From a virus: a stretch of DNA of 48,733 nt. Location: the IMG/VR virus record IMGVR_UViG_3300027754_000009, positions 1 through 48,733 of that record; one strand, written 5' to 3'. The number at the start of each line of letters is the position of its first letter. Positions within the stretch are counted from its first letter, which is position 1. Below, one piece after another: positions 17,355 through 43,881 of the stretch. Made by a program: the position numbers and the translations under genes. Below the pieces are notes generated by a model. That model was not told where the DNA came from. It ran no database searches and saw only the letters and a list, made by a program, of their open reading frames with translations.

Positions 17355-19867
17355 TCTTCTTCTCCTCCTTCGCCGCCGTTCTCTTCCGCCTGGCCAGGCG
17401 CAGGACGGCTGACCACCTTAAACGTAATAAAGCAACGGCAGCGCGGATGCCACGGCGGACCCTGCGGGTCTTCCCACTCACTCTCCGGCGCTCCGTTGAG
17501 CGGCTCGCAGATGGGGCATACCAGATCGTCGTAGTTGGTGTTGTTTACGCGCTCCAGCCGCAGGCCGAGCTTCTCGGCTTCGTCCCGGAATGCGCCCATC
17601 CCCGCCGCTGCCGCGCGCGTGACTTCGGTGACTGCGATGCTCTCCGCGCGCGCTTCGCCGAATGCAGGCGCGAGCGCGTCCACCAGATCGCCGAGCGTCA
17701 TCTCGTTCCCGGCCAGATATTCCGACACGGCTCCGCCCACGATTTCGCGCGTTGTATCCGCGAGTCCGTCGATGAGCTTGCCGGCGTGCTCTTCGGCCCA
17801 CTCGGAGGCACGAGTAGACGCGACGCCTTCGCCGAGCGGGACGCCGACATCCTCCTGCCCTGCATAGATCGACTCTTCCATGATGTCGCGCAGCATCGGG
17901 CGAAGCTGGTCAAGCATCTCGTCGTCAAAATCCGAAAGCGCCACAGGCTCTCCGCGCAGGATGGCATCGGCGAATTCGTCGGAAGCTTCGCTCATGACAG
18001 CGAGAAGAGCGGCGTATACCTTTTTCTCCTGCACCGTCATCTTCTTCTTTGCCGCCTTGCTCAGCCCTGCCGCGCTGCAATGCGCACACGTGCATCCGCG
18101 CGCATGCTCACCCGGCAGGGCGCGTGCTTTTGGGCTGGAGATCGCCTTAAAAATCGTCGCCACCATTGCTGCGTCGCCGGCCAGCGCCAGTCCGCGACGC
18201 ACCTTCGTCACCATTCCGGCGCTGAGCACCGGCGCACTGGCTGCAGGCGGATCGCAGTCCGCACGCTTGCCGTCCTTCATGCGCCGTACGGCTTTTTCGC
18301 GCCAGTGGTCGAGCGCCATCTTCTCAAAAGCCGTCAGTGGTTCAGGTTCCGGCTCAAAGACTTTGCCATAGCGCCGCTCGCTCGGGAGTGCGCCGGCGAC
18401 ATTGTCTGCTGCGCCGGGAACAGGCGAAGCCGGAACCGGCTCAGGCGCAGGTTCAGCGGAAGGCTCCGTTGTTTCAGGCGCAGGCGCAGACGCATCCGGT
18501 ATGGTCGCGGGCGCGGCGGGCTCCGGCGCATCTGAAAAGATTTTGTCGAGCGTCGTAGGCACTCCCCCGACCATCATGAACGGTTTGGCGTTTTCGATGG
18601 GTGGCTGCCCTGCCTTGGCGCGCCAGACGTTGATGTCGATAATGCCGTTTTGCAGCTGAATCTGCAGCAGCGACGCCTCCGCCGCCTTGTCCTCCGACGG
18701 GCCCATATCCTTGAAGCGCCACACAAGCGGCGCTTTCGTCTGCCGCGCGACGATGCCCGAAAACAAGTTCTGCAGATACTGCACGAGCGGGCCGATGCCG
18801 AAGCGATACAGCGCGTTCTCCTGACCGTCCATGAATCCCTTGCCCCCAAGGCCGGAGCCTGGCGTGAGCCCGAGCTCGGACGGCAGGAAGCCGAAGGCGT
18901 AGCACGTCATCTTCAGCATCCATTCGTCGAAGGCGTTGTTGGCCGCAGCGTCAGGCCGTCGGAACTCGTAAATCGGCGTGCCGCCCCCCGCCGAAGGCAT
19001 GAACTTGATGCGTCGCAGCTTGGCGACGTCGCCGACCAGCATTGCATCGAAGTAGTCTTGAAATTTGGATATGTTCTCCGGCGTCCAGTCCGACGGCAGG
19101 TAAGCCATCGCCTCAGGAACGTTCGTCTGGTCCCAGTACGCCGTAGATGCGAACTGCCTGCGCAGTGCTTCGTTGATGCGCAGCACGAGAAACTCAATCG
19201 GAGACTTCCCGTAGGGCGAGCCGGCCGACGTGTTGAACGGTCGATACAGCAGGCGATCGGCCGTGAACCACTGCCAGTTGCGGCCCTTGATGGCCTGCGT
19301 ATATGCCGGGATGGGCGGGCGTGGCGTTCGGCCGCGCATGTCAAGCAGCGGACGGATAGTAGACCCGTCAATCTGCTCCACGGACACCAGGTTGCCGCCC
19401 GCGTCCACATCCAGCCACAGGCTCACCGCGTCGTAGACGAGCAGGTCTTCCAGCACAGAGTTGCACCACGTGTCGAATTCAAGAATGCCGTCCGGCATGC
19501 GCCACATCTCGGTGATGCGCTCGATTTCGCGCGAGTAGTCCTGCTCGTCGTTTTCGTTCTTTGGTTTGATGTGCCACTCCGCCGAGCGGATTTCGCGCTT
19601 GATGGCTTCGATGACGATGCGCACCGCGTCAGACATGTCGGCGAAATTCTTCAGCGAAGAAAACGGCAGCTGTCCGTATCCTGAGCGCGGCTGCATATAT
19701 AGGTTGATGCCGCTCTGATAGTCGAACACGCGCGGCTTCTCGTCGTCGGAGACGACAGGAGGCATCGGCACGCCGGGCGCAAACACGCCGCGCGCGCCGA
19801 AAGCGTCGATGTACCGCTGCCGGTCTTCGCCGGTGACGTCGGTGATTGCATTCGGGTCTACGGCCAT
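17351..19867 (-). CDS. Portal protein fused to MuF-type head morphogenesis domain
   Basis: An 838-residue protein. ATG 19867 is chosen for its AAGGAG at 5-base spacing, although the frame extends to 20155. Residues 1-~450 are a phage portal (WFTADRLLYRPFNTSAGSPYG, FGFLPSELGLTPGSGLGGKG). A Pro/Ala/Glu linker follows (~475-540). The C-terminal ~300 residues match the MuF/SPP1 gp7 family: AVTEVTRAAAAGMGAFRDEA, then the cysteine pairs VCPICEPLNG and HPRCRCF near the end. The portal forms the DNA entry ring; MuF proteins are minor head proteins ejected or bound inside. The natural fusion of the two is known but not universal. Confidence 0.9.
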   Translation of the reverse strand: MAVDPNAITDVTGEDRQRYIDAFGARGVFAPGVPMPPVVSDDEKPRVFDYQSGINLYMQPRSGYGQLPFSSLKNFADMSDAVRIVIEAIKREIRSAEWHIKPKNENDEQDYSREIERITEMWRMPDGILEFDTWCNSVLEDLLVYDAVSLWLDVDAGGNLVSVEQIDGSTIRPLLDMRGRTPRPPIPAYTQAIKGRNWQWFTADRLLYRPFNTSAGSPYGKSPIEFLVLRINEALRRQFASTAYWDQTNVPEAMAYLPSDWTPENISKFQDYFDAMLVGDVAKLRRIKFMPSAGGGTPIYEFRRPDAAANNAFDEWMLKMTCYAFGFLPSELGLTPGSGLGGKGFMDGQENALYRFGIGPLVQYLQNLFSGIVARQTKAPLVWRFKDMGPSEDKAAEASLLQIQLQNGIIDINVWRAKAGQPPIENAKPFMMVGGVPTTLDKIFSDAPEPAAPATIPDASAPAPETTEPSAEPAPEPVPASPVPGAADNVAGALPSERRYGKVFEPEPEPLTAFEKMALDHWREKAVRRMKDGKRADCDPPAASAPVLSAGMVTKVRRGLALAGDAAMVATIFKAISSPKARALPGEHARGCTCAHCSAAGLSKAAKKKMTVQEKKVYAALLAVMSEASDEFADAILRGEPVALSDFDDEMLDQLRPMLRDIMEESIYAGQEDVGVPLGEGVASTRASEWAEEHAGKLIDGLADTTREIVGGAVSEYLAGNEMTLGDLVDALAPAFGEARAESIAVTEVTRAAAAGMGAFRDEAEKLGLRLERVNNTNYDDLVCPICEPLNGAPESEWEDPQGPPWHPRCRCFITFKVVSRPAPGQAEENGGEGGEEE

Positions 19868-30968: not shown

Positions 30969-31547
30969 CTAGATTCGCGCAGCCACGGGGGCCGCGTGCT
31001 GGTCCTGATACTTGCCGCCGCGATCCGCGTACGTTGTTTGCGGACGCTGATCGAGGGGCATGAATATGAGCTGTGCAATTCCCTCTTCGGTGTAAACGCG
31101 AATTGGCAGCTGGCCGACGTTGCTGAGTTCGAGCGTGATGTGCCCACGCCACCCGGCTTCAATCGGCGTCGCGTTGACAAGAAGTCCGCAGCGCGCATAC
31201 GTTGACTTGCCGATGCACAGTGCCATCACGTCATCGGGCATGTCGATGTGTTCTACCGTGGAACCCAGCACGCATTCACCTGGCCGCAGTTCAAAAAATC
31301 TGTTTTTGCGATCGAACGTGAACACGTCGTCCCATTGCATGTCGTCTGGATTTTTTGGATCGATAGTCGCCTTGCCAAAAAAACTTTGCACCTTCACCTG
31401 GCGCGACAGGCGCACGTCATAGCCATTGCATGATGTGCCGTAGCTGATTACTTTTTTGAATGTTTCATCGATGCGCACCTGCTGCGGCATGAATGGTGTA
31501 ATGCGTTCGCTCATTCGTTCGATAATTGTTTTGTCAGACCAGACCAT
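30969..31547 (-). CDS. dcd: dCTP deaminase
   Basis: A 192-residue protein with AAGGAG four bases before the ATG. Features of the Dcd/dUTPase family: SCNGYDVRLSR, VLGSTVEHIDMPDDVM, GKSTYARCGLLVNATP and EAGWRGHITLELSN with the catalytic Glu. It yields dUTP (or dUMP if bifunctional; I cannot tell from the sequence) for ThyX. Overlaps the preceding zinc-knuckle gene by 14 bases. Confidence 0.93.
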   Translation of the reverse strand: MVWSDKTIIERMSERITPFMPQQVRIDETFKKVISYGTSCNGYDVRLSRQVKVQSFFGKATIDPKNPDDMQWDDVFTFDRKNRFFELRPGECVLGSTVEHIDMPDDVMALCIGKSTYARCGLLVNATPIEAGWRGHITLELSNVGQLPIRVYTEEGIAQLIFMPLDQRPQTTYADRGGKYQDQHAAPVAARI

Positions 31548-32001
31548 TTTTCTCCTTATGGACTTTGCCGCCCCGCGGAAGCGCGGACGCGCTCCAAAAA
31601 AACGCGCATTCCCGCAGCGAAGAGAGTACGCTGAGAAGCGCGGCGCGAGAAGACTCGGTGGTGTGCTTCGACGCCGTCATAGCGCGCTTGAGATCGACAA
31701 TCATTCCGTCAATGTCGAGGATGTGCTGACGGCACGCGCCAAAGCTTTCGTTGCTGGGCGCGCCGCGTGTGGCCGTGTTGTGCACTGCGATGCAGGACTC
31801 AATGATGTATGCGGTGAAATCAAAAGCCGCGTCGCCGGATTCTCGGCGCACAATTTCGACTCCTGTTTCTTTTGCAGCAATCGAGGCGATCTTGTTTCGC
31901 GCGCGGCTGTCTTTCCCCTGGCACCGTTCCGAGCAGTACATTTGCTTTCCGGAGCGAGGCTCAAACGAATCGCCGCACTCCGCGCAGTTTTTTTTGTTCA
32001 A
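31534..32001 (-). CDS. Single zinc-knuckle protein with helical domain
   Basis: A 155-residue protein with TTG start 32001, overlapping the upstream stop as TTGA and preceded by AGGAGAGGA. Cysteines 6, 9, 23 and 27 have the spacing C-x2-C-x13-C-x3-C. The rest is helical (residues 35-130), with IIESCIAVHNTATRG and LDIDGMIVDLKRAM. The knuckle matches those repeated five times in the next protein, so the two are related parts of one module. Function unknown; DNA or RNA binding is likely. Confidence 0.7.
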   Translation of the reverse strand: MNKKNCAECGDSFEPRSGKQMYCSERCQGKDSRARNKIASIAAKETGVEIVRRESGDAAFDFTAYIIESCIAVHNTATRGAPSNESFGACRQHILDIDGMIVDLKRAMTASKHTTESSRAALLSVLSSLRECAFFWSASALPRGGKVHKEKNGLV

Positions 32002-33218
32002 CCGATCCTCTCCTTTTTGACAAACTCGCCGGCTTTGTTGCGCTGTCTGTACGTCTCTTCGCGCTCGCCGGCGATTCTGAGCTTGATGCGCTGCACCGCT
32101 CCGACGGTGCGCTCGATTTCGTCGGCGGAGAAGTCCAGCATGCGGCCGACGCTTTCGACTCGCACGCTGCCGCCGTCAATCGCGACGATGCGCCCGGCGT
32201 CGGACGCTTCAATCAAACGTTCACGGCCACCGATGCTCATTGCGCGCGCCGACCGCACGAGCACCGGCGCGCCGACGCTGATTTCGTCGACCAGCGCCTT
32301 AACGAAGATGCGCTGCATGACGGCATCAGCACACGCCGCACTGCAGCAGTCGAGCACGGCTGCGTTACGCTCCACCGTGCGCCCGCATCCGCGGCAGCAG
32401 ATCGTCGCCGGCGTTTCCCAGACTGTCACCGGCTTCGTCTTCGGCTTCGGCGCAGGTTTTAGCTCGGTGCGCGCAGGTATTGGTGCGCGCAGGTCTTGGC
32501 GCGCGATGTAATCGGCAACGAACCTGTCTCGATTTTCTGCGCCGCGAATTCCGTAATAAATCGCCGCGTGCAGCGCGTTTCGGCGAAGATTTTTGCATTT
32601 ATCGCTGCACACGACGCTGCGCCGCGACACGGATTTTTGTTTGTACAGATTTCCGCACACCGCGCAGGTGGTGCTGGCGACTTCGGCAGGTGTCTTTAGT
32701 TTTGCCGGCAATCGCACGCGTCCTGAGCGCCTTCTTTCTTCGGCTTTAAGCTCTTGCCGCCGTTTATACCGGCACGCGGTTCCACACGTGACTTCTGCGC
32801 CGTTGCTTTTTTTGGTGAACCTCACGCCGCAGACAATGCACGTCTGCTTTTTTGCATCTTTGGTGCCCGCGGCGCCGATTCGAATTCTTTTCAGTCGCTC
32901 ATGTCGTGCGCGCTGGCACCGCTTCGAGCACGCGTGATGATTGACGCGCGACTTTGCAAACTTTGCGCCGCACTCCGAGCAGGAAGATATTTCCTGACTG
33001 TGCCCTGAAATTATTTTCACGCCAAGCGCTTCGTTGCGGCGCTTGTGCCACTCGCGCTGATAGATTCTGTTGTTGGCGCTGTAGCACGTCGGGCCGCACA
33101 GTGCGTGCAACCTGTTTTTCGGCGTAAAAAGATTTCCGCAGATGGCGCAGGCGCGTTTTTCATTCTCTGCCGCCGCGCCTAAGGCCTGCTGATGGTGCGG
33201 CTGTTGTGATGTCTCCAT
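31998..33218 (-). CDS. Five-zinc-knuckle array protein
   Basis: A 406-residue protein starting METSQQPHHQQALG. Five C-x2-C-x(13-15)-C-x3-C knuckles at cysteines 24/27/41/45, 80/83/97/101, 127/130/145/149, 185/188/204/208 and 275/278/292/296, separated by basic segments (RHERLKRIRIG, RRSGRVRLPAKLK). The C-terminal 110 residues (VKALVDEISVGAPVLVRSAR...RIVAIDGGSVRVESVGR) look like a small beta-barrel and a helix, perhaps an adaptor. Many tandem knuckles suggest sequence recognition of nucleic acid. No ribosome site is evident at 33218; the upstream frame is a shadow. I know no phage family with this array. Confidence 0.7.
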   Translation of the reverse strand: METSQQPHHQQALGAAAENEKRACAICGNLFTPKNRLHALCGPTCYSANNRIYQREWHKRRNEALGVKIISGHSQEISSCSECGAKFAKSRVNHHACSKRCQRARHERLKRIRIGAAGTKDAKKQTCIVCGVRFTKKSNGAEVTCGTACRYKRRQELKAEERRRSGRVRLPAKLKTPAEVASTTCAVCGNLYKQKSVSRRSVVCSDKCKNLRRNALHAAIYYGIRGAENRDRFVADYIARQDLRAPIPARTELKPAPKPKTKPVTVWETPATICCRGCGRTVERNAAVLDCCSAACADAVMQRIFVKALVDEISVGAPVLVRSARAMSIGGRERLIEASDAGRIVAIDGGSVRVESVGRMLDFSADEIERTVGAVQRIKLRIAGEREETYRQRNKAGEFVKKERIG

Positions 33219-33243: not shown

Positions 33244-33888
33244 TCACTGGTATTGCGTGAAAAGGAACTCCCAGTAGCACTCCTGCGTCTCATCCAGCAT
33301 GTTCAAGATTTTTGTTTCGCGCGCATATTGCTGCGGACGCAGCCGCTCGAGTTCTTCGTAACCGGCAAGCCACAAAAGGCAGTTTGAGTCCCAATACACC
33401 ATGCCGTGCTGCTGCCCGCGCATTGGCTTCGTCCACTGGTGGTCTTCGTGCTGAGACAGGTAGGACAGCGGGCGCGCAAACAGTCCCGTTGGGCTTTTCC
33501 CTTTCAGTTGGTCGGGCGTATCTTTTGCTTCGTTTCCGGGCTTATGCAGAAAATACATCCACACGGGGAACGGCGTCGACTCCTGCACGCTCATGTAGTG
33601 CTCGTAGTGGTGCAGGTCAATGCCCGTCGTCCATCTTTCGCGCGTTCGATTCCACGAAAACGCGCTCTTGTGTTTCGCCTCCACCCAGAACGTTCGCTCG
33701 CTGCCCATCACCAGCATGTCGGGAGCGACCAGCGTGCGCTCCATCTGAAACAGCGTCGGCCCTTTGTAGTCCCCGGTCTGTTTCTCGTAAACAGGAAGCA
33801 CGCTGTATCCCTGCGACATGAGCCAGAGCGCAATCAGGCTCTCGCCCACTTTGCCGCCTTCCAGCGACGTCTCAAAATTGCTACGCAT
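33244..33888 (-). CDS. PD-(D/E)XK nuclease-like protein
   Basis: A 214-residue protein, ATG 33888 with GGAGG close upstream (the frame extends to 34182 as a shadow). An N-terminal GGKVGESLIALWLMSQGY leads to VAPDMLV (Asp57), then WVEAKHK (Glu70-x-Lys72), the D...ExK core of restriction-type nucleases. The C-terminal half (PVWMYFLHKPGNEAKD, LLWLAGYEEL) is unassigned. Holliday-junction resolvase or repair nuclease is plausible. Overlaps the ParB-Dam gene by 8 bases. Confidence 0.7.
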   Translation of the reverse strand: MRSNFETSLEGGKVGESLIALWLMSQGYSVLPVYEKQTGDYKGPTLFQMERTLVAPDMLVMGSERTFWVEAKHKSAFSWNRTRERWTTGIDLHHYEHYMSVQESTPFPVWMYFLHKPGNEAKDTPDQLKGKSPTGLFARPLSYLSQHEDHQWTKPMRGQQHGMVYWDSNCLLWLAGYEELERLRPQQYARETKILNMLDETQECYWEFLFTQYQ

Positions 33889-35059
33889 CAATCCTCCGGA
33901 CAACTGCGCCGTGCTTGCCAAATGCCTCAGCAAATTTCTGCACGTTTTGCCCAAGATACACGACCGCGTTGGAGTGCGTCGGCGCGCCGGAGCCGTTGAT
34001 GAAATGGATGCGCCGATAAACGAAGCAGACGGTGTGCTCCCAGAGCGGATGAAACCACTTGTTGCCGGGCACTGCGTTGACGAGCACCATCGCCTCGGTG
34101 ATGTTGCCTGCTGCGTATTCCTCGCAGGCGCGTCGCACCCAGCGCGCCTGATTGGTTTCCGACTCGCCTTCGTCCTTGCCATACGGCGGATTCATCCACA
34201 CGCGGCCGGCCCACGGCTTGCTGAATCCGTCTTCGTCGATGGTGTAGTAGGTTTCGGCGCGGACGTTGGCGTTTGCCTCTGCGCAGCTGGCCGGGTCAAG
34301 ATCAACGCCGCCCATGACTTCGCGCGCGGAGTCGAGGAACTCAAGCGGCGTGTAGTACTCGTTGGATTTGGAGGAGTTGATGAGCTGGTGCGAAGACACT
34401 TGCTTGAATGCTTCTTTTGGCGTTACGCCTTCGTCCAGTTTGCCGATGAATTCCCGAATAGCAGCCGGTGTTTTAGCTGCCACTTCTTTCGCCTGCGGAA
34501 TCGTCAACTCGCCGCTGCGCACACGTTCGAGCAGTTCAGGCGCTTCGTCGCGCAAGCGTTTCGCGTCGCTAACGTACTGGCGATTCGTGCCGACTAGTTG
34601 CGCGGCTTGTTGCACGGCTTCGTTAGTGTGTTGTTCGCGCGGCTCCTCAAACCCTTCCCCAATTAATTGGGGAAGGGTTTTTGCATTTCCGCGTCCGCCT
34701 TCGTTTCCACGTTCTCCCGCTGCACGCTGCCGTTCCTTCGCCTCCGCCTCCAGCATCGGCAACACGTCCATAGCCACCGTCGCTTTCTGCGACGACGACA
34801 AATGCCGACGCTGCAAGTTCAGCGACACCACGAACGACACCAGCGAGCCTGCGCCGTCCCACACGCGCGTATCCGGCTCAATGCCGAGCTGCTGGCACGC
34901 GCGGTAGCGGTTGCGCCCGTCGATGATCTGGCCGTCGTGCACGTAGATGGGCTGACGCTGCCCGTTCAAGCGAATGTCTTCGACGAGCGCGGAGAACTCG
35001 TCGTCGCTCATCATCGGGAAGATGTTGGCGACTTCGTGGAAGGTGTATTGAGTTGTCAT
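33881..35059 (-). CDS. ParB-like domain fused to Dam-type adenine methyltransferase
   Basis: A 392-residue protein. Residues 1-110 resemble a ParB N-domain (ISDGRNRYRACQQLG-like motif: IIDGRNRYRACQQ at 45-57), 145-195 a ParB HTH (QQAAQLVGTNRQYVSDAKR), and 230-392 a phage N6-adenine methyltransferase (YYTPLEFLDSAREVMGG, DLDPAS, NPPYG at 290-294). It is in the replication block after the O-like initiator (TGATG overlap). It may mark phage DNA or control methylation during replication. A 32-bp perfect palindrome lies in the coding part for residues 127-138. Confidence 0.85.
   Translation of the reverse strand: MTTQYTFHEVANIFPMMSDDEFSALVEDIRLNGQRQPIYVHDGQIIDGRNRYRACQQLGIEPDTRVWDGAGSLVSFVVSLNLQRRHLSSSQKATVAMDVLPMLEAEAKERQRAAGERGNEGGRGNAKTLPQLIGEGFEEPREQHTNEAVQQAAQLVGTNRQYVSDAKRLRDEAPELLERVRSGELTIPQAKEVAAKTPAAIREFIGKLDEGVTPKEAFKQVSSHQLINSSKSNEYYTPLEFLDSAREVMGGVDLDPASCAEANANVRAETYYTIDEDGFSKPWAGRVWMNPPYGKDEGESETNQARWVRRACEEYAAGNITEAMVLVNAVPGNKWFHPLWEHTVCFVYRRIHFINGSGAPTHSNAVVYLGQNVQKFAEAFGKHGAVVRRIDA
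34649..34680. repeat. Perfect 32-bp palindrome inside the ParB-Dam gene
   Basis: The two 16-base arms (34649-34664 and 34665-34680) are exact reverse complements; the centre is AATTAATT. On the plus strand the hairpin is followed by further T residues (TTTTT in all), like an intrinsic terminator reading against the gene. In the gene it encodes TLPQLIGEGF. A perfect palindrome of this size within coding sequence is not expected by chance. Confidence 0.9.
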
Positions 35060-36105
35060 CAGTTCGTCTCTTCTTCGAGTTCGCGCCGGGCGCGCTCTTC
35101 GTTGGCGCGGCGCTGCTCGTCGGTGAACGTCACCTGGGCGCGCCGGAACTTCCCGTTGCTGCCGCCGTTGTTCGCCGTCGTCGTCGCAGGCTTCGGCGAG
35201 TGCCTGGATTCTTCAAACTGCACCCAGAGCTCGGTGATGCGCTCAGGAGTCGGCTTGTCGCCGCGCTTGCCGCGCCAGTCGTTTGCGTGCCACCACGCCG
35301 CGAAGTCGGCGACGGCCGCAGGGTCAATCCCGCGCTGCGCCAGGTATTTCGCGGCAACGCTGATGCGCTTAGCCGACATCGGAGCCTTCGCGTCCATGAC
35401 GCAGGCCTTGCCGACCGCGGCGAAGCAATCGCCGTAAAGCGGTGACTTCGCCGGGCGCTCAGGGCGTACCGGTTCTTCGCAAGCGGGAGCGTCTGGAATG
35501 GATTCGGCGCGCGGCTGTTCTGGAGTCGGCGTCGGTGCAGGTATTGGCGCGCTTGCAGTCTGCTGCACCTGAACGTCCATTGAAAGGCGAGAGGTCGAAG
35601 GCGTCGCGCCAGCGGCGCGAGAGCTTTCTTTCTCTTTCTTTGTTTTCTTTCCTTTCTTTTGTGTGTGGAGTTTTTCCACTGGTAGCGGTGTACTTTCTCC
35701 ACTGGTAGCGGTGGAGTTTTTCCACTCCTTCCAGTGGAGTTTTTCCACTAGTGCAGAATTTCCACTAGTGGCGTCGTCGCTGTCTTCTGCCGCCACGCGG
35801 AACTCGTAGACGTAGGAAGCGCCGCGGTCCGTCATCACCTCGCGGCGCGCAATCCACTTCAAGCGCAGGGCTTCGTCGATGGCGCTGATAACCGTTTTGC
35901 GGGACATTCCGGTCTGCGCTTCCAGCTGAGACAGGCTAATCAGGTCGGCCTGACGGTGCCACCCGCGCGTTCGCCGGAGGACGACGCACACGACGCGGAA
36001 CGCGGCGTTGCTCAGGCCCTGCCCGCGGTCGAGCAGCGCGTTGGGAATCTGCGTGTAGTTCGGCTTTTCGCCGGTCCACTCTTCGGGCTTTCGTTCGTCG
36101 GTCAA
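35059..36105 (-). CDS. Lambda O-like replication initiator containing the origin iterons
   Basis: A 348-residue protein with TTG start 36105 preceded by AAGGAG at six bases. Residues 15-95 form the winged-helix domain of O-type initiators (YTQIPNALLDRGQGLSNAAF, DLISLSQLEAQTGMSRKT). Residues 115-150 encode five iterons as repeated EKLH/EWKNSTATSGES. A Lys/Pro/Ala-rich linker follows (150-220), and a C-terminal helical part (ISVAAKYLAQRGIDPAAVADF) may load the helicase. No helicase or helicase-loader gene is obvious, so host proteins may be used. Located beside the switch region, as O is in lambda. Confidence 0.85.
   Translation of the reverse strand: MTDERKPEEWTGEKPNYTQIPNALLDRGQGLSNAAFRVVCVVLRRTRGWHRQADLISLSQLEAQTGMSRKTVISAIDEALRLKWIARREVMTDRGASYVYEFRVAAEDSDDATSGNSALVEKLHWKEWKNSTATSGESTPLPVEKLHTQKKGKKTKKEKESSRAAGATPSTSRLSMDVQVQQTASAPIPAPTPTPEQPRAESIPDAPACEEPVRPERPAKSPLYGDCFAAVGKACVMDAKAPMSAKRISVAAKYLAQRGIDPAAVADFAAWWHANDWRGKRGDKPTPERITELWVQFEESRHSPKPATTTANNGGSNGKFRRAQVTFTDEQRRANEERARRELEEETN
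35628..35766. other. Probable replication origin: five iterons next to T-rich tract
   Basis: Near-repeats of GTGGAGTTTTTCCACT start at 35665, 35688, 35711, 35734 and 35751; the first four are exactly 23 bp apart and carry AGTGGA/TCCACT arms. The preceding ~40 bases (35628-35662) are almost all T and C, an easily melted one-sided tract. Iterons inside the initiator gene beside such a tract is the lambda ori layout. Copies 2 and 5 diverge from the consensus. Confidence 0.8.
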
Positions 36106-41954: not shown

Positions 41955-42758
41955 ATGAGTGAAGAAAATTTCGAAATCGGCGTGCTGCCATTTGGAAAAC
42001 TGGCGGCAATGGTGAACAGCGTTTCGTATCTCGCCAGGCTCAACCGCGAGTGCTACCGCTCTGTTTATTTTGCCGTGAAGGACGGCGCGCTGCGCCTGTT
42101 CGCCACCGACGGAATATCGGCCGCGTGGATTACGCACCCGGTTGAAGCCGGCGACTGCGAGAGCATCGCCGCAAACAACGCGGAGCTGGAAACGGCAGTT
42201 GCTTCGTTTAAAAAAGACGCCGCAAAGCAGAACGTGTTTTTGTCGCGCGTTGGCAACGAGCTCGTGCTGGAATCGTACGGCCTTGCGCAGCGGCGCGCGT
42301 CGATTGCAAGCAGCATTAAGTACGAGTCTCTAACGGCGCACAAGATCCCGGCGGCAAGCGCGCACGTCAACGTCAAAGACGCTTTGAAGGCACTGACTTC
42401 AATTTCAAAAAATCACAAAACCATTGCGATTCACTTTCAGCGCGGCGACGAAGCAACTGCGGCGTGGATGGACGTAAAAATAAAAACCGTCAACACCGAA
42501 GCTTCCTTTAAATCGCACGCCACGTGGAGCCCGGTGCTCGCGCTCTCAGGCGCAGCGGCCTGCCCTGCTCTCGGCGACGGCAAAAGCTTTCGCTTGTATT
42601 TTCAGACAAAATTTTTTATAGACGCGCTGAGGCATTCCGGGAAAGAAGCCATCGTGCGTATGTTTCCATCGCATCCGACGGGATACGGCGGCGTGTCTGT
42701 AACGGGCGACAACGAATGCACGCATCTCATCAGCCCGGTCAAGGAAACGGCGGTTTGA
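41955..42758 (+). CDS. Possible DNA sliding clamp-like protein
   Basis: 267 residues (MSEENFEIGVLPFGKLAAMV). VYFAVKDGALRLFATDGISA early on, and a C-terminal VSVTGDNECTHLISPVKE that is similar to the end of bacterial beta clamps, where a final strand reads VxMPMR. The alternating strand/loop pattern with repeated hydrophobic/charged positions agrees with a clamp domain, but two or three domains would need about 370 residues for DnaN and it is shorter. No polymerase is in the window. Confidence is moderate; it could be another beta-rich protein. Confidence 0.5.
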   Translation: MSEENFEIGVLPFGKLAAMVNSVSYLARLNRECYRSVYFAVKDGALRLFATDGISAAWITHPVEAGDCESIAANNAELETAVASFKKDAAKQNVFLSRVGNELVLESYGLAQRRASIASSIKYESLTAHKIPAASAHVNVKDALKALTSISKNHKTIAIHFQRGDEATAAWMDVKIKTVNTEASFKSHATWSPVLALSGAAACPALGDGKSFRLYFQTKFFIDALRHSGKEAIVRMFPSHPTGYGGVSVTGDNECTHLISPVKETAV

Positions 42759-43232: not shown

Positions 43233-43615
43233 TGCCAACGCGCTACGTCAACCTTACGACGCATGACGTGCGCGTGTATACCGGACACTGCCACGATCCA
43301 TACTCCGACCGGAATTTGGAGAACTGGATCATGCTCCCGTATACCGGCTTGGTAGCGCGCGTGGATTCAATCTCAGAGACGACCAGCGTTGGCGGCGTCC
43401 AAACGCTGCGCATGCACATGGGCGCAACCGTTGGAATTCCAGGCGCTCAGCCTGGCGTTGTCTATGTCACGTCTTCGCTCAGCGCGCGCACTGCAATGCG
43501 CATCGACGTTGTCAGCCCGGACATTGACCGGAGCCCGGTGCTCGACAGTCAGGACAGAATTTACGCCGTGCGCGGCTGGAAGCAGTGGATTGAAAAGGAA
43601 AGCGAAGGCGAATGA
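43232..43615 (+). CDS. Conserved phage protein of unknown function, 127 residues
   Basis: ATG 43232 (MPTRYVNLTTHDVRVYTGHC). Pattern NLTxHDVxVY, LVARVDSISETT, GAQPGVVYVTSSLSARTAM, DVVSPDIDRSP and GRIYAVRGW-like end resembles a widespread phage/bacterial family in which a first strand with NLTPH and a middle VxxSxL occur. Its function is not known to me. Strand-rich. Confidence 0.65.
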   Translation: MPTRYVNLTTHDVRVYTGHCHDPYSDRNLENWIMLPYTGLVARVDSISETTSVGGVQTLRMHMGATVGIPGAQPGVVYVTSSLSARTAMRIDVVSPDIDRSPVLDSQDRIYAVRGWKQWIEKESEGE

Positions 43616-43881
43616 ACCGCGACGAACTTCTTTCTGCGCTCAACGCGTGCGGGTGGCGCGCAAAAGCGGCGGCGGAGATGCTGCACTTTTCGCCTCACAC
43701 TGTAAACCTTTACACCCGCATTTACCGGCTGTATGCGCTGCGCCCGTGCTCCGTGTGCGGCAGGCAGTGGGAGCGCACAAACATGCGCCGCGTGTGCAGC
43801 GACGGGTGCCGCGTGCAGGCCAATCGCAAAAGAGCGAGCGCGTACAAACGACGACGCGCCGCGGCACAGGTGCGATGGTGA
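43612..43881 (+). CDS. Small HTH plus zinc-knuckle protein
   Basis: 89 residues. An N-terminal HTH-like region (LNACGWRAKAAAEMLHFSPH) and a knuckle with cysteines 46/49/62/66 (C-x2-C-x12-C-x3-C), then a very basic tail (KRASAYKRRRAAAQ). The knuckle is a relative of those in the 31534-33218 genes. Overlaps its neighbours (ATGA and within the next gene). Likely DNA-binding. Confidence 0.7.
   Translation: MNRDELLSALNACGWRAKAAAEMLHFSPHTVNLYTRIYRLYALRPCSVCGRQWERTNMRRVCSDGCRVQANRKRASAYKRRRAAAQVRW

Follow-up and report, generated by a model that had tools for sequence, protein, structure and literature searches.

A nuclease-free protein with five predicted treble-clef-like zinc fingers encoded in a phage replication operon

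Introduction

The closest described relatives of the protein studied here are phage HNH endonucleases of the family phrog_1271, which carry tandem CxxCGxxF...CSxxC fingers with basic helices. Examples are gp105 of Mycobacterium phage Dante, gp80 of Gordonia phage GAL1 and UYE95861.1 of Sinorhizobium phage NV1.1.1. A literature search found no study of the phage finger arrays as such. A paper from 2025 reports on an HNH element of phages that has CXX(X)C zinc fingers on its flanks (PMC11855218). ShiLan, as it is called, is a homing element situated in the methylase gene of a phage (PMC11855218). At the level of the single finger, YacG, FCS and L24 have been grouped as the TRASH family of treble-clef fingers (PMC4999995).

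We analysed a whole virus record of 48,733 bases, referred to as the window and belonging to a phage represented solely in metagenomes, in which a protein with a five-knuckle array had been singled out as the best candidate for an undescribed system. The features discussed are collected in Table 1.

Table 1. Coordinates of the array gene, its fingers and the genes discussed with it
Feature	Position	Strand	Remarks
Lambda-O-like replication initiator	35059..36105	(-)	
ParB-Dam protein	33881..35059	(-)	ParB-like N-terminal domain fused to Dam-type N6-adenine methyltransferase
Upstream neighbour of the array gene	33244..33888	(-)	214 aa; PD-x(11)-EAK motif
Five-finger array protein	31998..33218	(-)	406 aa; ATG at 33218
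Finger 1	33084..33149	(-)	residues 24-45; CAICGNLFTPKNRLHALCGPTC
Finger 2	32916..32981	(-)	residues 80-101
Finger 3	32772..32840	(-)	residues 127-149
Finger 4	32595..32666	(-)	residues 185-208
Finger 5	32331..32396	(-)	residues 275-296; next helix hydrophobic/acidic, not basic
C-terminal tail of the array protein	32001..32330	(-)	110 residues; no family match, no HNH
Single-finger neighbour	31534..32001	(-)	155 aa; TTG start; one N-terminal finger (31921-31986); tail without family match
dCTP deaminase / dUTPase family protein	30969..31547	(-)	directly downstream of the single-finger neighbour
HTH-like protein	43612..43881	(+)	89 aa; HTH-like N-terminus and one probable finger (43747-43809)

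Results

The five units were readily recovered. The pattern C-x2-C-x(10-16)-C-x3-C was found five times in the array protein with spacings of 13, 13, 14, 15 and 13, in agreement with the original prediction. When the protein was shuffled 20,000 times, no shuffle contained three or more finger units, so the five units are beyond chance. Likewise, when the window was copied 20 times with a second-order Markov model, a frame held two units at most. The frame of the array gene has the highest codon score of its six frames, and an alternative in-frame start is possible at an ATG further upstream (33293). An additional C4 match at 19426-19650 did not score with the finger HMM and was discarded as a chance match.

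The finger HMM, which was trained on fingers from other loci only, recovered all five array fingers (whole-protein E 1.3e-17). Judged by their sequences, the fingers are old, since they share only 16-37% protein identity with each other and all 20 ligand cysteines are kept. They are joined by linkers of 25-66 residues. The linkers had been described as basic, and this holds for the linkers and helices of fingers 1-4, where the helix behind each finger has a charge of +3 to +6; the helix behind finger 5 departs from this with a charge of -1.

Two other proteins of the window had been proposed to contain a single unit each. The gene of the first lies downstream of the array gene, and its start overlaps the array gene stop by 4 bp. 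Its finger was clearly matched by the finger HMM (7.8e-10), and the protein may be a partner of the array protein. In the HTH-like protein the HMM match was weak (domain E 0.0027, 13.0 bits) and lay below the best domain of the decoys made by shuffling the window ORFs 20 times (14.7 bits); it is therefore not significant by itself. The protein also matches phrog_32573 at 4e-5, and with this match the finger appears likely, not certain. The HTH-like protein is a related module outside the array operon. The comparison of the knuckles by HMM, as proposed originally, thus placed the five array fingers and that of the neighbour in one family, and the finger of the HTH-like protein weakly.

The array protein was then modelled with AlphaFold2 from an alignment of 34 array segments, and the structure prediction called for originally gave five treble-clef-like units (mean pLDDT 73, pTM 0.37). 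Each unit consists of hairpin strands and a helix, the strands of finger 1 being very short. The pLDDT values by block were mostly 82-96 in the cores of fingers 1-4 and 68-84 in finger 5; with a pTM of 0.37, the orientation of the fingers to each other is unreliable. The tail was modelled as a helix, a low-confidence stretch (311-341), three strands and a long helix. From the model, the array units are predicted to be five treble-clef-like fingers.

A profile of alignment A3 reached the FCS, L24e, MYM and YacG treble clefs, with matches to 2l8e, 1lv3/4tma, L24e and 2das. The same profile scored C2H2 arrays above treble clefs, so its signal is presumably in part that of generic finger spacing. 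The treble-clef assignment is based on the ligand pattern and the predicted fold together, which support it short of proof. The five units share the C-x2-C...C-x3-C ligands with the TRASH, YacG, FCS and L24e fingers (PMC4999995), and the model predicts a hairpin and helix like theirs, whereas the matched members of these groups are single fingers and the sequence similarity is weak. None of the Pfam zinc-finger families scored above the cut-off for the array protein. One finger was matched by the N-terminal finger of lambda NinG (PF05766) with an E-value of 0.0042, but this match stayed below the cut-off (17.4 vs 25.4 bits) and covered 46 of 193 profile positions.

A fold search of the PDB with the array model returned nothing below E 0.001, and the best match by whole-protein sequence had an E-value of only 0.18. 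YacG was among the weak fold matches (4tma_K, probability 0.69, E 3.0). Matches to SH3, Hfq and integrase-tail folds were set aside as too weak for use. Foldseek against viral models gave many HNH nucleases, a WhiB and a DUF559 protein at E < 0.001, with NinG proteins ranking lower.

The finger was also found in many other phage proteins. The family phrog_1271 (HNH endonuclease) matched residues 17-157 of the array protein with an E-value of 3e-23 over positions 112-246 of its 361-position profile. The relatives in named phages were reached by a permissive tblastn search, whose matches are not significant by themselves. Dante gp105 and GAL1 gp80 have three fingers followed by HNH, and UYE95861.1 has four fingers followed by HNH; these HNH domains all exceed the Pfam cut-offs. 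Two fingers in a row, searched as an exact DNA pattern, were matched in viral contigs and in bacterial genomes, the matches listed being a minimum in both, and the viral matches listed include proteins with up to six counted fingers. In a contig of Selenomonadaceae (L240), six tandem-finger pattern matches lie within 3.8 kb, apparently in several consecutive array genes.

Alignment A2 combined the array protein with 65 proteins that have three or more fingers, and 64 of these 66 matched phrog_1271. The commonest partner domains were Pfam HNH models. The restriction-enzyme-like domains DUF559 and MTES_1575 were joined to arrays in four members each; among the viral matches, L022 and L050 are apparently such proteins. 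As far as sequences tell, tandem arrays of this finger are ordinary and widespread in phages, mostly in HNH endonucleases. The view that such arrays were not known from phages could not be upheld, since many phage proteins carry 3 to 6 counted copies. A match of all knuckles to one known family had been named beforehand as part of what would argue against novelty, and such a match was found. The candidate for an undescribed system turned out to be a phage finger array of a known and abundant sort, in a version that lacks the nuclease.

Its own architecture was not met elsewhere: no homologue with it was found in the phage, viral-contig and bacterial collections searched. Close relatives of the array protein were absent at 0.01 from the phage collection and absent from the bacterial genomes, and in viral contigs they were confined to one contig with 100% identity, which also holds the only further copy found of the pair formed with the single-finger neighbour. 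Compared with the three to four fingers and terminal HNH of the phrog_1271 endonucleases, the array protein has five fingers, longer linkers and a different tail. It resembles ShiLan in that the fingers are CXX(X)C pairs on loose linkers, but ShiLan has a central HNH with the fingers on its flanks (PMC11855218), whereas the array protein has neither an HNH nor signs of insertion.

We searched the array protein for a DNA-cleaving domain of the HNH, GIY-YIG, LAGLIDADG or PD-(D/E)XK kind. None was found in Pfam or PHROGs, where the PHROG match covers the fingers only, and the Pfam HNH models matched neither the protein nor its tail. The tail gave nothing significant against Pfam, PHROGs and phages. 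A degenerate HNH in the tail was considered but is not claimed, because a MAFFT alignment with HNH domains showed a few shared residues yet had no profile support. HNH (PF01844) was not found above the cut-off anywhere in the window. The peculiarity of the array protein, by sequence comparison, is the missing HNH domain together with an unfamiliar C-terminal tail.

Other arrays also appear to be free of nucleases. By Pfam, this applies to ten other array proteins, one of them a WhiB fusion; the count is restricted to these ten Pfam-scanned proteins, as sorting into classes by motif was too loose. The group L028/L088/L115 and the WhiB fusions L057 and L040 have two to five such fingers, and Pfam shows no nuclease in them (for L040 this was judged solely from its sequence), but they differ from the array protein in their N-terminal parts and have no equivalent of its tail. 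In L028/L088/L115, most finger cysteines are kept across divergent members, which speaks for a function without a nuclease. A PF01844 gene was present somewhere in six of the 11 records with apparently nuclease-free arrays and absent from the other five, so a general partner HNH was not seen. L040, L054, L057 and L070 are WhiB-like transcription factors with two or more such fingers at the C-terminus, where WhiB was confirmed by Pfam for L057 only.

The array gene had been placed in a replication block with nucleases and a methyltransferase, and its surroundings confirmed this. The gene order is O-like initiator, ParB-Dam, PD-x11-EAK protein, array, single-finger protein, dCTP deaminase/dUTPase, SSB, ThyX and endonuclease. 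The right arm of the window encodes RecT, a possible sliding clamp and a large serine recombinase, which suggests that the virus is a temperate phage. The gene at 41955-42758 distantly matches a phage DNA polymerase processivity factor (phrog_947, 1.6e-6). Another IMG/VR contig matches the window with 100% identity over at least 15 kb.

Two repeated elements were noted in this operon. The ParB-Dam gene contains a perfect 32-bp palindrome at 34649-34680 (AAACCCTTCCCCAATT/AATTGGGGAAGGGTTT), for which we estimate a chance expectation of about 1e-5 in the window; it is possibly a ParB-like or regulatory site. The O-like initiator gene holds five imperfect 17-bp repeats at 35664-35766 (GTGGAGTTTTTCCACT-like, spaced by 23, 23, 23 and 17 bp), which resemble iterons in a replication origin of the lambda type. 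The ParB-Dam protein is matched at 33% over nearly its whole length in contigs L131-L133 and L135. Near another relative of it (L128), a seven-finger, HNH-like-looking protein is encoded, and in four near-identical contigs (L149-L152) a two-finger protein lies directly downstream of a Dam methyltransferase with no HNH seen; both cases are suggestive only.

Discussion

The most plausible function of the array, going by its sequence, is modular nucleic-acid binding, and we infer binding to DNA from the kinship of the fingers. Our preferred reading, to which we give about an even chance, is that the array protein derives from the finger module of phage HNH endonucleases and, free of a nuclease, serves the replication operon as a DNA-binding accessory or regulator. 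Fingers 1-4, with their strongly basic helices and linkers, would bind along the DNA and together would recognise phage (or host) DNA in a composite manner. Finger 5, along with the strand-helix tail, may touch a protein partner or self-associate. The protein would then probably act as a site-specific accessory or regulator of the early or replication operon, in a role derived from the DNA-reading part of the array-HNH endonucleases.

Small nucleases are common on their own in phage operons of this kind. It is conceivable, if unlikely, that the array protein is the DNA-reading subunit of a split nuclease and its upstream neighbour the cutting subunit, so that the two genes encode a homing endonuclease or one that cuts host DNA. 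The two genes lie on the same strand with 25 bp between them, the PD-x(11)-EAK motif points to a PD-(D/E)XK-like nuclease, and fusions of arrays to DUF559 and MTES_1575 domains exist. However, the neighbour had no Pfam match, no significant PHROG match and no relatives in the phage or viral collections searched, its single-sequence model was unusable (pLDDT 31), and a small nuclease of its own would be nothing unusual at this place.

RNA binding is known for FCS and L24e fingers and gyrase binding for YacG. The array fingers might likewise bind RNA or a host protein, for example for host takeover, and the A3 profile matches to FCS, L24e and YacG, the weak fold matches to YacG and the non-basic helix behind finger 5 are consistent with this. 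We regard it as rather improbable, because the finger in phages accompanies DNA-acting nucleases and WhiB or HTH-like regulators and the array gene sits among DNA-replication genes. The least probable of the three alternatives is a decayed homing endonuclease, surviving as a passenger after the loss of its nuclease domain: the array relatives are mostly HNH proteins and mobility in phages is documented for an HNH gene that bears fingers (PMC11855218), but the frame of 406 codons is intact with 20 of 20 cysteines, the protein is longer than the related HNH proteins of the named phages, its modelled tail is partly structured where the HNH would be, no HNH above the cut-off occurs in the window, and most cysteines are retained across the divergent members of another group without a nuclease.

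The finger array is a widespread phage module and hence no new system. The arrays without a nuclease suggest, however, that the array-HNH endonucleases have a DNA-reading half which is usable by itself or in fusion with regulators, for example WhiB. A bolder and quite doubtful extension is that phages possess a modular class of DNA readers made up of treble-clef arrays without a nuclease. Each finger would read a few base pairs, and the length of the site would follow from the finger number; the five-finger protein would then be a prokaryotic counterpart of the C2H2 arrays and would serve phage replication or gene control. Should the arrays read DNA in this modular way, prokaryotes would have in them a natural set of multi-finger DNA binders of great diversity, and the nuclease-free array protein would be convenient for testing their recognition code.
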